64,000 bases of DNA from Desulfococcus multivorans. GTDB taxonomy: Bacteria; Desulfobacterota; Desulfobacteria; Desulfobacterales; Desulfococcaceae. The stretch is from assembly GCF_001854245.1 (NCBI RefSeq), contig NZ_CP015381.1:3259001-3323000 (forward strand), in the 5' to 3' direction. Under the pieces are notes generated by a model that was not told the DNA's origin, ran no database searches, and worked only from the letters and a program-made list of their open reading frames with translations. This document shows positions 3,306-8,067 of this stretch, in pieces. Both the position numbers and the translations under genes were made by a program. Numbering within the stretch: the stretch's first letter is position 1; every line of letters begins with the position of its first letter.

Positions 3306-3734
3306 ATGAAACATTTCTATAAATTTTTAGTCTTATCATCTCTTTTTACGATATTTTTTACCGGGCCGGCAACAGAGAAAGCGGCCTTCACGCAGCCCAC
3401 CTTTGTTTATGCCCGGGAAACAGTGAACATATTGAAGCAACAGGAGAATTCCGGAATTACGCGCAATGTCGATGTTGAAAGCACCGATTCATTTCTCCAT
3501 GTCCAGGACGGAAATTCCGATCTCAGATCAGGCCCCCTCGCGGTTTTCGGTTTTGGTCTTTTGGGGCTGATGCTCGTACTCCGACGAAGAGGTGACAGGT
3601 CCAATCACGGTCAAAATATCTTGAAGACCGCCGACATATCGGGCACAGAAGAGAATGGCCGCCGCGAATGCCGGTCGACGCTGAGGCAGTCGACCTTCAA
3701 GCCCGTAGCGCGACTTTCCCAACCCCGCGGGTAA
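3306..3734 (+). CDS. Small exported protein with a PEP-CTERM-like membrane segment
   Basis: A 142-residue protein with a typical signal peptide (MKHFYKFLVLSSLFTIFF then Ala/Thr residues) and an exported region of about 50 polar residues. Then comes GPLAVFGFGLLGLMLVL followed by RRRGDR, the layout of a PEP-CTERM or similar sorting tail, though the Pro-Glu-Pro motif is missing. About 40 further residues follow the basic cluster, which is unusual and may reflect a shifted true stop. The start at 3306 has GGAG nine bases upstream; the longer frame from 3237 lacks support. It sits 109 bp before the phosphatase gene and may belong to the same unit. No family recognised. Confidence 0.5.
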   Translation: MKHFYKFLVLSSLFTIFFTGPATEKAAFTQPTFVYARETVNILKQQENSGITRNVDVESTDSFLHVQDGNSDLRSGPLAVFGFGLLGLMLVLRRRGDRSNHGQNILKTADISGTEENGRRECRSTLRQSTFKPVARLSQPRG

Positions 3735-3843: not shown

Positions 3844-5130
3844 ATGACGATTACAAACAATCCGGAGCGCCTTTTGATGATCCAGAATCTTACCGAACTG
3901 CTTCAGAAATATGGTGAACAGGTGGCGCTCCAATGGGCGAAACACCTTCACGAAAATGTCAGTGATCACTACGCCGCTCGCCCTTTTGAAGAGCTTTTAA
4001 CCACAACATCGCAGTCGAGCCGGGCGAACTTCGATGCGATCGTGTACGGGGACTATTCCAAAGTAGATGCCTTTATCGCCAAAATCTGCGATCTGCGACT
4101 GGAAGGCGGCTTTGCGCTCTCCGAAGTCCAGAAAGCCTTTGAAATTTACCGACAGATCCTGGTTCCGATTCTTGTTAAAGAATTGAAAGGCGACACGCTG
4201 CTCGAGGCGCTGCAACGTCTCAATGATTGTCTGAGTCGCACCATCTTCGCGTTCAGCGACTATTTTCTGCATATGACCAATGCCAGATTGATCGAAAAGC
4301 AGAAGAAGCTCGACGAAGATCTTCAGGCAGCCGCCGGGATTCAGCAGTCCCTGTTGCCGCAGAAACTGGCAAAACAGCCAAAATTTGAAAATTTGGACAT
4401 CGCCTGGAAATTCATGCCGTGTGAAACGATTGGGGGCGACATCTTCAATGTGATCCGCCTCGATGAGGATCACCTCGGTTTTTACATGATCGACGTCAGT
4501 GGACATGGGGTCCCTCCCGCCCTGGTGACCTTTTCCATTTCCCAGACGCTTCAACCCCACATGGGTTATACCATTCGGAAAAGACCCGGCCTTTCTCCCA
4601 ATTATGAAATTGTGCCCCCGGGAGAGGTGCTCAAGGCCCTGGATTCCGAATATCCCTGGGAACGCTTCGAAAAGTTTCTGACCATCATCTATCTCATCCT
4701 GAATATCCGCAACGGTCATTTGATCTACAGTAACGCCGCGCATCCGCCTCCCATCCTCGTCCATGCCGACGGAACCACCGAGCTGTTGGAAACGGGGGGA
4801 ACTATAATCGGTCTCGACGGCATCCTGCCCTTTGAGGAGGAAGAAAAGATCATTTCGGCGGGAGACAAGATCATTCTGTATACCGACGGCGTATTTGAAT
4901 TCACGAATGAAAAAATGGCATTGTTCGGGAAGGAGCGATTTCACGCCCTTGTCGACAGCAAGAACGGACTGCCCATCGCCAACATCCTGGAAGAGATTGT
5001 CCTCGAGATTCAACGTTTTGTCGGAAGCGCAAAACTTCAGGATGATGTCAGTATCCTGGGGATTGAATTTAAGGAAAGAAACGCAACAACACAACATTCA
5101 CCCCAAATAAACCTGACAATCAAGGATTGA
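3844..5130 (+). CDS. RsbU-type PP2C phosphatase with N-terminal RsbRD domain
   Basis: A 428-residue cytoplasmic protein. Residues about 10-150 form an all-helical domain like the RsbRD N-terminal domain (PF14361), normally a sensor or partner-binding module. A coiled linker (IEKQKKLDEDLQAA, near 165) leads into a SpoIIE/PP2C phosphatase (about 190-415). The metal-binding acidic residues are all present in GGDIFN, DVSGHGVPP, LYTDGV and LQDDVSIL, so it should be active. Such enzymes dephosphorylate anti-anti-sigma (STAS) proteins in partner-switching systems. No STAS protein or RsbW kinase is in the window, so the substrate must be elsewhere. The next gene begins three bases after its stop, indicating a shared transcript. 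Confidence 0.88.
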   Translation: MTITNNPERLLMIQNLTELLQKYGEQVALQWAKHLHENVSDHYAARPFEELLTTTSQSSRANFDAIVYGDYSKVDAFIAKICDLRLEGGFALSEVQKAFEIYRQILVPILVKELKGDTLLEALQRLNDCLSRTIFAFSDYFLHMTNARLIEKQKKLDEDLQAAAGIQQSLLPQKLAKQPKFENLDIAWKFMPCETIGGDIFNVIRLDEDHLGFYMIDVSGHGVPPALVTFSISQTLQPHMGYTIRKRPGLSPNYEIVPPGEVLKALDSEYPWERFEKFLTIIYLILNIRNGHLIYSNAAHPPPILVHADGTTELLETGGTIIGLDGILPFEEEEKIISAGDKIILYTDGVFEFTNEKMALFGKERFHALVDSKNGLPIANILEEIVLEIQRFVGSAKLQDDVSILGIEFKERNATTQHSPQINLTIKD

Positions 5131-5133
5131 AAC

Positions 5134-5640
5134 ATGGAGAAAAAAAATTTTCTTAATTTTGCTTCAAAACGCATATTAAAGTATGAAATAATAGCATTTT
5201 TAGCTATTATTGTTATGTTATGGCTTGATGAAATACTCGACCTGCCCCATTTCATTTTAGGGGCTGATCCAACGCCGATCAACTGGAGAGAAGCGCTGTT
5301 CGAAACGGTTATCATCGCCATTATCGGCGGAGCAATATCTTATATTAATGGCCTTTTTATGGCCCAATATTTTATTCTCAAGAAAAACGAAATTCGAACA
5401 AAAGTTAGAGAGAATCGATTGAAAGACATCAATAAAACACTTGGTGTTGTTCACCATAACGTCAATAATCTTGCGAATATGTTTCAAATTATCGGAATTA
5501 AAGCCAAGAAATCTGAACAAATCGACAGTGTTTTGCTGGGAAAGCTGGAAAAAACGATTTTTTCCGTAAAGGATGAAATGACCAAGCTGACGGAATTGGA
5601 AGAACAAGCGAAGGAAGACACCTTCGAAATTGAATTTTAA
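5134..5640 (+). CDS. Two-TM membrane protein with a DHp-like helix pair, no ATPase domain
   Basis: 168 residues. Membrane segments lie at about 17-32 and 55-80, followed by a charged helix and LGVVHHNVNNLANMF (His107-His108), then a second long helix ending in Glu-rich sequence. This resembles the dimerisation/phosphoacceptor (DHp) hairpin of histidine kinases: a His at the turn of the first long helix, two helices of matched length, and a short TM sensor in front. The protein ends with no CA/HATPase domain, so it cannot phosphorylate itself. It starts three bases after the phosphatase stop. It may be a membrane anchor, phosphotransfer partner or decoy; this is inference. The gene is more AT-rich than its neighbours. 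Confidence 0.6.
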   Translation: MEKKNFLNFASKRILKYEIIAFLAIIVMLWLDEILDLPHFILGADPTPINWREALFETVIIAIIGGAISYINGLFMAQYFILKKNEIRTKVRENRLKDINKTLGVVHHNVNNLANMFQIIGIKAKKSEQIDSVLLGKLEKTIFSVKDEMTKLTELEEQAKEDTFEIEF

Positions 5641-6454
5641 CCGCGCAGTCAGGGGATTCTCCCTTGACGCTAATTTAAATTGACCCACCTATGCTCACCA
5701 AAATTGACCCATCAGGTTGTTCCAACCATTAAAATTTTTGCATTCTGCTCATCCGCTTTCTTGATTCTCTGAAAGAAAACGAATCAACATCAAATTAAAG
5801 ATACAATTCATAAAAGCAAATCAGGTAATTATTATTTGATACCTGTTTGCTAAGATCCGAATAGTGTCACGCCTACATGCCAATTTCATGACGGAAATAA
5901 TGTAACGCTTTTCATACCCCGCCCATAAATTTATCGACTTACCCCGCTACCCCGCCGTTTTCAAAAAATGTTTTCAATCCATGAAATTCGGATTGTAATT
6001 TCATCTTGAGTTTAGGAGCAGTAGGTACACGCTGAATTCCATTCAGTCGTGCTGCGCCTTGCGCGGCACCCCGTCACGCCGATTTTTGAACCTACTGCTC
6101 CGAAACCCGAGTCAAAAAACGAACATCGTCCTATTTATTGAGGCATCACATCCAATTTTTGACTTTTCCCGCTATGCTGTATCAGATATGGCGACAATTT
6201 TTCGTACTGAAAGCAATAACTCGTCAACAAGAAGACCTTTCGAGTAGGCCACCCTGAAAGCAAAGATGTAGTATACTTACTTTAATTTATTCGATTAATT
6301 ATATTTGGAATTTTAAATCTAAGGGCAATGGTATGGTTATTGCATTTCCTTGGGTTTAATTTTTGTAAAAACACAAAATCGCGCGAGGGCTTGACGGACG
6401 GGCATCCGAGCGAATGAACGCGATTCAGCGTGTGTCTACAAAATCGGAGGGTTT
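5641..6454. other. Non-coding stretch, mobile-element debris
   Basis: No convincing gene in about 800 bp of AT-rich sequence. Near 5676-5712 there are two similar phrases, AAATTGACCCACC and AAATTGACCCATC, which look like leftovers of an insertion-sequence end; I could not assign a family. Bases 6014-6101 hold a structured inverted-repeat element, listed separately. From about 6240 the sequence is AT-rich up to the tail of the broken IS1634 transposase. Confidence 0.4.
6014..6101. repeat. 88-bp inverted-repeat element with nested stems
   Basis: Perfect 12-bp ends, GGAGCAGTAGGT at 6015-6026 and ACCTACTGCTCC at 6090-6101, enclose two further small stems: CTGAAT/ATTCAG near 6033-6047, and GTGCTGCGC with GCGCGGCAC (one wobble pair) near 6049-6069. 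The whole element could fold as a branched hairpin. I see no second copy in the window, so it could be a small non-autonomous element, an RNA structure, or a chance palindrome cluster in IS debris. Confidence 0.45.
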
Positions 6455-8067
6455 TCAGGACAGTTTTTCCAGCTCGACGACCTGCTTCTGAGGGGTGATC
6501 TTTAACAATTTAAGTATGTTGATGGTTGACGCGGGCAATTCGTTGCGCATGAGCACACGGAATTTTAAATTGAAAAATTCTGTGATCTGAAGCGCATCCA
6601 GCGCCACCTGGATCTGGTGCCAGGGCTTTCCGCAGGCCAACTCGGCGACGGTTCGATGACCATCAGGCCCTTGTAGCCGCAGGCAGCGTCCTCCAGGCTG
6701 ATGGTGTCGTCATTGGTTTCGAGGACCCACTTGCCGTCATAGGTTTCCGCTTCCCGTATTTTGCCCCGGTCGATGCGGACCTTGTTGGTCTTGGTGACCT
6801 TCAGGTAGCGCTTGAAGCGGCGGGATGCCGGCAGCTCGATGGCCCATTGGGCGGTTGCCGATGCATCCTTGTGAGATTCGAGCGCCTTCTCCAGGACGGC
6901 GACGGTCATCTCCCGGTGCTTGCGCTGCCGTTCGGCCTCCCTGGGGTTGCAGCAGAGAATATAGCGCCTGCGCCGCTCGCCGTCGCCGACCACGACCGCC
7001 TTTGCATGGAGGTTGTCCTTGAAAACGGTGTAGCGGCCGCGCTTGCTCAGGACTTTTTTGCGGATCTCGGCCACGTTGGACATGCGGCAGGCCAGGAGGT
7101 ACTTGCCGCAGGCCCCGGCCAGTTCCCTGCGGTTGTCCTCGGAGTTCATGCCCGAGTCGGCGACAAACATGGCACGGCCCAGGTGCCGGCCCCTCAGGTC
7201 CGCCCGAACCTTCTCGACGGTCGCCACGTCGGAGGTGTTGCCCGGCAGCACCCAGCTGCGCACGGGGATGCCCTCGCGGGTTACCGCCAGAGCGACCACC
7301 ACCTGGGGGCTCCAAGTGCCCTCCCTGGAATGGCCGAACTTCCGGAGTGTGGCATTGGCGTGCCGGTCGGGGTCGTCCTCTCGGTCCACATGGAAAGAAG
7401 CCGTGGTCGTATCATAGAAGATCAGGTCGACCTCCAGATTGAAGAGATCGGCGATATGAAAGAAGATGGCCGCCTCGATCTTGTCCGCATGCTCATACAT
7501 CAGGTCCATCGCCTCGTACATGTGGTCGAGCTTGAGTCCGTCGCAGGATGGGAGATAGACCCTGGCGAGCCAGCGGTCCCATACGCCAAGCTTGGACTCG
7601 GGATCGCACAGCCGGTTGGCGGTCATGGCCAGCAGCGCTCTTTCATAGAGAACTTGCAGTCCTTAGGCCTTGACGACATCCGCCAGCGTCTTTTTCAGCC
7701 CCAGCCGCTCCCAGAGGGCCTCGATCACCATCGGGCAGCCGAAAGAGCGGGTTTTCCTGATCTTCGGGTCGACGAAGAAGCCCGCTTCAGGCGACGGCAG
7801 GGCGCCCGAAGCCGGATCCAAGGGATCGTTGACCGTCAGCCCGCAGAACCGGGCGATGGACCTGCAGAGGCGGATCAGTTCCTGCCGGTCGAGCTGCTTC
7901 GCCCGGCCGAAATTGTGGATAATGTTGGCGACCGGCTTGCGGGTATCCGGGTGGCGCTCGTTTTGCGCCAACTGGAGGTACTCGACCACGGAGCCGTCTT
8001 TGTTTCGTCGCTTCGTTGAACGGAGGTACATGTTTACACTTATGGCATTTTTATTCATTAATATCAA
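6455..8067 (-). pseudogene. IS1634-family transposase, disrupted
   Basis: Read in the minus direction, residues from 8067 match the IS1634 (IS4 superfamily) N-terminal region. The frame then meets an in-frame TAA after VVKA (near 7665), continues in the same frame with GLQVLYERALLAMTANRL, and carries the DDE-type catalytic blocks IFYDTTTASF and FVADSGMNSEDN. At about 6650 the frame jumps: GLMVIE is joined to a shifted VAELACGKPWHQI, and the proper tail ends at 6455. About 40 codons that normally hold the region after the catalytic Glu appear deleted. One nonsense codon plus one deletion with frameshift makes it inactive. I could not find clear terminal inverted repeats. Confidence 0.85.

Follow-up and report, generated by a model that had tools for sequence, protein, structure and literature searches.

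A SpoIIE-type phosphatase gene and an adjacent DHp-like membrane protein gene in Desulfococcus multivorans: a possible partner switch acting in trans

The ORF A–ORF B locus

The window studied here is a stretch of 64,000 nt of the genome of Desulfococcus multivorans (G000). Two closely spaced genes lie near its start. ORF A (3844–5130, + strand) encodes 428 residues with an RsbRD_N-like region followed by a SpoIIE/PP2C serine phosphatase domain, as judged by Pfam, motifs and homology. ORF B (5134–5640, + strand) encodes 168 residues with two predicted transmembrane (TM) helices and a DHp-like helical part, no ATPase domain and a GC content of 35%. The first-pass annotation of this DNA placed three bases between the two genes and the coordinates agree, with ORF B beginning three bases past the ORF A stop codon. 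A Shine–Dalgarno-like AAGGA is located inside the end of ORF A (5122–5126, + strand), 7 nt before the ATG of ORF B.

Ahead of ORF A is a small ORF (3306–3734, + strand), probably exported, with a signal-like start and a later hydrophobic segment and Arg cluster, past which the frame continues for about 45 residues. It had been likened to PEP-CTERM proteins and proposed as the signal or cargo of the pair. The label finds no support: the PepA model scored 20.7 bits against a cut-off of 80, and the TIGR02602 exosortase model gave no match in G000, a weak negative given that the same model matched in 1/14 control genomes and nowhere over its cut-off. Nor did the signal or cargo idea gain support.

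Downstream, starting about 0.9 kb beyond ORF B, is a degraded insertion sequence (IS; 6565–8067, − strand) comprising a transposase ORF (6565–7626; PF01609, DDE transposase, in 6565–7623) and a segment that is probably its other part (7663–8067). The genome holds four further copies at 93–95% with open frames of 570 aa and one at 68%. Outside the window, about 2.6–4 kb ahead of its start, a minus-strand gene (L054) appears on inspection to encode a histidine kinase with a linked receiver.

The phosphatase and its relatives

The SpoIIE model PF07228 matches ORF A with an E value of 1e-37 (130.4 bits against a cut-off of 25). The phosphatase motifs GGD197, DVSGHG217, TDG347 and QDDVS399, which we take to be the metal-binding Asp motifs, are intact. 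Judged by domain and motifs, ORF A is a SpoIIE/RsbU-type PP2C phosphatase. Of the RsbRD_N–SpoIIE architecture first assigned to it, the SpoIIE part thus stands, whereas the RsbRD_N part (PF14361) falls under the Pfam cut-off of 24.3 bits, scoring 18.9 with the whole protein and 21.8 with the N-terminal piece. The closest relative found for ORF A, in G382, reaches 24.1 bits with this model, and a kinase of the same genome, 38% identical to the N-terminal region of ORF A, passes at 25.9 bits. No receiver (REC) domain was found in ORF A by Pfam; several of its relatives are, by eye, REC-SpoIIE proteins. An AF2 model of ORF A alone has a pLDDT of 34 and is uninformative.

Two PAS-HisKA-HATPase kinases of G000 are headed by a domain resembling the ORF A N-terminus (C1:2807465–2807875, L010, and 4442656–4443081, L014). 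The gene after each kinase is a response regulator by eye; the Pfam assignments cover L010. Sensor modules are described as being swapped among such phosphatases and kinases via coiled-coil linkers (PMC12143880), and the presence of the ORF A N-terminal module on two kinases corresponds to module exchange of that kind.

In a set of 395 genomes of the phylum that includes G000, 54 show a match to ORF A at E <= 1e-40. The closest relative found, in a genome from a different family of the phylum (G382), is 75% identical over residues 9–426 (418 residues). The DNA alignment (77%) covers the gene body only (3870–5076); since it starts at 3870, position 3844 and the ATG at 3877 are equally good starts for ORF A. 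In G382 the gene order is phosphatase–STAS–RsbW, followed by a convergent glgP. In G000, unlike G382, no STAS or RsbW gene adjoins ORF A and the canonical operon is absent. Given the different family of G382, transfer of ORF A is possible in place of relocation.

We examined 40 ORF A-related loci (the 29 for which the phylum-wide search gave a locus, and 11 more), including flanks of at most 1.5 kb. One (L082), which matched through the N-terminal domain only, was dropped, leaving 39 loci with SpoIIE, some of which end at contig ends. Within 1.5 kb of the phosphatase, both STAS and RsbW are present at eight of the 39; five have STAS without RsbW, three of these STAS matches being at just 25–28% identity, and one has RsbW without STAS; a profile search picked out the same loci. 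Amongst the best seven relatives with loci (L020–L026, 50–75% identical) the pair lies within this distance in six, and in five of these it is on the phosphatase strand. At the remaining 25/39 loci neither gene was found inside 1.5 kb. Phosphatase genes without this linkage are thus frequent in the more distant relatives and a broken operon is not required, which counts against reading the arrangement in G000 as one.

ORF B and its family

In ORF B, hydropathy and matches in other genomes mark a two-TM part at about residues 16–79 (5179–5370, + strand). Its hydrophobic peaks fall at residues 19–37 and 58–76 and are followed by a soluble part with H107-H108-N109, so that the two-TM protein with an HHN motif described at first pass is indeed present; the ATPase domain said to be missing was likewise not found by Pfam. 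The motif H107 H108 N V N N L A N (residues 107–115; 5452–5478, + strand) is at the position of a DHp-like phospho-acceptor. By the positive-inside rule the residues between the TM helices would face outside.

The two-TM part was matched in seven of 95 other related genomes. The five host proteins that were read, of seven, comprise three histidine kinases (L005–L007), a GGDEF protein (L004) and a short protein (L003). In one of the kinases, L005, which carries a related two-TM part, the equivalent of the distance from Trp51 to His108 is 58 residues, compared with 57 in ORF B.

Searching the 395 genomes with ORF B as a single sequence gave C-terminal relatives in four besides G000; one of the four, L019 (E 0.007), was left out of the family. 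ORF B and the other three relatives were combined into a profile, which, run over as many genomes, matched in eight besides G000, three of them contributing profile rows and two represented by HisKA proteins (L093 and L094). One peptide pattern, run across the named genome collection, gave four loci, one of which (L096) is the same locus as L071. Nine distinct relatives result (L071, L072, L073, L090, L091, L092, L095, L097 and L098). All are short (about 154–174 aa when read from the likely start), keep an open frame and share residues past the motif, and the short form is therefore maintained elsewhere. Of the ten members including ORF B, nine have His at position 108, the exception being L073 with Asp; six have His and four Gln at position 107, and Asn occupies positions 111, 112 and 115 in all ten. 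These sequences point to a small family of DHp-like, kinase-less membrane proteins that has no Pfam model, of which ORF B would be a member.

Similarity of ORF B to DHp domains

The soluble part of ORF B had been proposed to resemble a histidine-kinase DHp hairpin. Pfam gives no HisKA match in ORF B, nor in five family members up to an E value of 5. Profile comparison speaks for the proposal. When the family profile was compared with 30 HisKA domains of the same genome (the best 30 of 40 G000 matches at E <= 1e-6) the score was 27.5 with a probability of 62, while 100 column shuffles reached 15.8 at most, and His108 of ORF B aligned on the HisKA phospho-acceptor histidine. A smaller set of four HisKA rows gave 20.1 (probability 9) with the tool and 21.4 (probability 15.1) with our script, for which the shuffle maximum was 16.8. 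This set omits two of six original rows that a search by the ORF B family profile had itself brought in; the six-row comparison (probability 90) is partly circular for that reason and was not counted. On its own, ORF B reached 15.1 with the four rows, a score not above those of the best family-profile shuffles. On this profile evidence we take the kinship of ORF B with HisKA to be real but distant, and to rest on the family rather than on ORF B alone.

The residue that follows the histidine differs from the usual one. E or D follows the acceptor in 28 of the 30 own-genome HisKA domains, whereas in the nine members with His108 the next residue is never an acid, being Asn in ORF B and Ile or Val in its relatives; L073 has His107 followed by Asp108. 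The AF2 model of ORF B places helices at 89–126 and 132–161 with a mean pLDDT of 52 (about 60 in the helices), and because of this low value it does not establish a bundle. A profile search of the PDB with the ORF B family returned only FANCD2 matches, at E 0.07.

Pairing and composition

The first-pass annotation treated the phosphatase and the membrane protein as partners. In the loci sampled such a pairing proved not to be conserved, the outcome that the annotation had named as refuting the idea. By profile search, 0/39 phosphatase loci, the 75% identical G382 included, carry a member of the ORF B family inside the 1.5 kb flanks, and conversely SpoIIE, STAS or RsbW was found at 0/9 ORF B-family loci (2.1–16 kb each, L090–L092 being short; tblastn E <= 1e-3, profile E <= 0.01). 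The tblastn form of this neighbourhood test is the weaker, the ORF B query having missed four of ten family entries and the SpoIIE query L013. The profiles recovered all ten family entries, eight of which are profile rows or the same locus as one (L090 and L097 are not), and SpoIIE in 6/6 control loci. The adjacency of ORF A and ORF B was seen in G000 only.

The two genes also differ in composition. ORF B has a GC content of 35.3% (GC3 38%), compared with 49.7% for ORF A and 56.7% for the window, and is the lowest of 46 mechanically picked window ORFs of at least 150 aa; the drop is located around the ORF A–ORF B border. The low GC of ORF B, this drop, the nearby degraded IS and the lack of conserved pairing together favour, and suggest, that ORF B is a recently acquired neighbour of ORF A. 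A second decayed IS stretch lies near 193.2–193.5 kb, about 11 kb from the STAS–RsbW pair described below. Movement of ORF A by an IS is suggestive at most, because the element has four other near-identical copies.

A STAS–RsbW pair elsewhere in the genome

When RsbW is absent beside a switch phosphatase, a genome-wide look is needed ahead of proposing a new partner. Searching G000 by PF01740 only gave three STAS matches, and two of its 16 HATPase_c_2 hits are strong RsbW-type matches. One STAS antagonist gene (C1:182318–182662, − strand) matches the STAS of G382 at 78% identity, and an RsbW-type kinase gene beside it (C1:181856–182314, − strand) matches the G382 RsbW at 55%. They belong to a minus-strand cluster (L099, C1:181856–190165) in the order REC-SpoIIE (C1:189017–190165, − strand), PocR-PAS-HisKA-HATPase-REC-Hpt kinase (C1:188965–185201, − strand), glgP, STAS and RsbW. 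DNA identity with G382 is 74% across STAS–RsbW, which is inverted relative to glgP, and 76% across glgP. Orthology of the pairs was judged by identity together with the glgP neighbourhood. ORF A is about 1.37 Mb away, taking the 4.46 Mb contig as circular, and the RsbW is therefore displaced, not missing. The presence of this pair speaks against a membrane hairpin as the substitute for RsbW, and that inference does not hold up.

The local REC-SpoIIE protein is 26% identical to ORF A. A genome of the same genus (G001) has the kinase, glgP, STAS and RsbW in the same order on a 5 kb contig (STAS 83% and RsbW 68% identity), and nothing in this draft matches ORF A at E <= 1e-30. With two species of the genus lacking a linked ORF A, the gene has here been either retained elsewhere or gained by transfer.

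Proposed model and alternatives

We consider it somewhat better than an even chance (about 0.55) that ORF A is the unlinked input phosphatase of an ordinary partner switch, acting in trans, with ORF B a separate and probably acquired gene. In partner switching a phosphatase activates a STAS antagonist, which then captures RsbW (PMC8256260). In G000 the RsbW-type kinase would phosphorylate a serine of the STAS antagonist encoded beside it and ORF A would most likely strip that phosphate; dephosphorylated STAS would re-bind RsbW and the target of RsbW would be freed. The RsbRD_N-like domain of ORF A would respond to a ligand, by sensing or binding it, and a helical linker would pass its control on to the phosphatase. 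Since the REC-SpoIIE gene sits in the STAS–RsbW cluster, its product and ORF A could both feed a single STAS, as RsbU and RsbP do with RsbV; service of one antagonist by these two phosphatases is described in PMC7522486. ORF B would be a membrane-anchored DHp-like protein, presumably dimeric and incapable of self-phosphorylation, that may be co-translated with ORF A yet would not be a required partner. From the observed gene content, sequence relationships, split linkage, composition and profile similarity we infer these biochemical steps and the action of ORF A on this STAS in trans.

The model draws on the order phosphatase–STAS–RsbW by glgP in G382 and on the position of the G000 equivalents, which are also by glgP. 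Several points weigh against it. The local REC-SpoIIE protein may by itself act on the STAS, leaving ORF A with another substrate or none, and the RsbW is just 55% identical to that of G382. The 3 bp spacing and the AAGGA motif favour co-translation of ORF A and ORF B, for which a pure bystander would have no need.

These last two features invite an alternative in which ORF B serves ORF A specifically, as its regulator or its anchor in the membrane. With the DHp-like helices packed against the RsbRD_N-like domain or the linker, a membrane signal would alter dimerization of the phosphatase, in a manner comparable with the activation of RsbP by RsbQ, which form a co-transcribed phosphatase–agonist pair (PMC7522486); activation by linker-driven dimerization is reported for RsbU and has been proposed for related phosphatases (PMC12143880). 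Set against this are the zero counts in both directions, 0/39 phosphatase loci (<=1.5 kb, G382 included) and 0/9 ORF B-family loci, and the GC drop around the border of the two genes, and we judge a dedicated role to be unlikely. An otherwise different possibility is that adjacency to ORF A is incidental and ORF B is a phosphotransferase or response-regulator phosphatase similar to PhyT, ChpT or Spo0B, fed by another kinase and using His108 (or His107) as phospho-carrier. The alignment of His108 on the HisKA phospho-acceptor and its presence in nine of ten members fit this role, as do the 40 HisKA matches in G000 at E <= 1e-6 and the precedent of PhyP/PhyT in the Sphingomonas general stress response (PMC5898713). 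The missing acid after His108 (9/9 members, against E or D in 28/30 own HisKA domains), the weak DHp similarity and the poor model of ORF B tell against it, and we regard it as a tentative candidate, clearly short of an even chance. ORF A, having no REC domain by Pfam, is not a possible phospho-acceptor, and phosphotransfer from ORF B to ORF A was rejected as the default on this ground.

Decay offers another explanation, in which ORF B is a truncated histidine kinase, the TM and DHp remnant left after loss of the ATPase, and has no function. The two-TM part is related to that of kinase L005 and the Trp–His distance is nearly the same (57 compared with 58), and a degraded IS lies about 0.9 kb downstream. 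The nine relatives, however, are also short, with open frames and residues shared past the motif, and the ORF listing shows none of at least 80 aa within 5690–6560; decay is accordingly improbable to us. We would give similarly little weight to the proposition that ORF B represents an undescribed membrane-tethered DHp-only family, with a two-TM anchor and a hairpin but neither an ATPase nor an acid after the His, and that in this lineage a partner-switch phosphatase lacking its linked genes has recruited it to supply a membrane input. If true, signalling in the manner of histidine kinases would be joined to a STAS/RsbW switch that is itself connected with glycogen phosphorylase.

Comparison with known systems

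Phosphatases of the RsbU, RsbP and HmpU type resemble ORF A in joining an exchangeable sensor at the N-terminus to a SpoIIE/PP2C domain. In G000, unlike in those modules, the phosphatase is separated from STAS–RsbW by the 1.37 Mb noted above.

Spo0B and ChpT offer a likeness to ORF B in the dimeric helical hairpin with one working histidine that is proposed for it. Both are soluble, and Spo0B has an extra domain similar to the one that forms the C-terminus of ChpT. That C-terminus is reported as an atypical ATP-binding fold (PMC3433190). ORF B differs from the two in being membrane bound and in lacking an acid after the histidine. The Sphingomonas protein PhyP/PhyT, which we take as one protein, is described as a predicted membrane-anchored DHp protein with a degenerate ATPase and an HRxxN motif that carries out phosphotransfer (PMC5898713). 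ORF B shares with it a membrane anchor, a DHp-like histidine, the lack of a working kinase and the context of a stress-response switch; it differs in lacking both an ATPase domain of any kind and a large sensor in the periplasm, and its motif is HHxxN instead of HRxxN. In possible function ORF B would be most like the kinase-less DHp proteins PhyT or ChpT, its link to ORF A resting on adjacency. Among the papers listed, none is by its title about a phosphatase and DHp-protein pair of this kind.

Partner-switch genes and glycogen phosphorylase

Partner-switch genes near glycogen phosphorylase or a UDPGP gene were noted at loci L099, L151, L064, L032 and L021. A partner-switch STAS gene lies beside glycogen phosphorylase in four genomes (G000, G001, G382 and G057), the phosphorylase being called by Pfam in G000 and G057 and by DNA similarity in G001 and G382. 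We found no literature joining SpoIIE, STAS, partner switching and glycogen. Control of glycogen turnover is a possible meaning of this neighbourhood, and its repetition would offer a concrete physiological readout for testing the switch. RsbW accompanies the STAS genes on the glgP side except at L032, where none was found. In another genome (G427) a SpoIIE–STAS–RsbW set is situated near a UDPGP gene.
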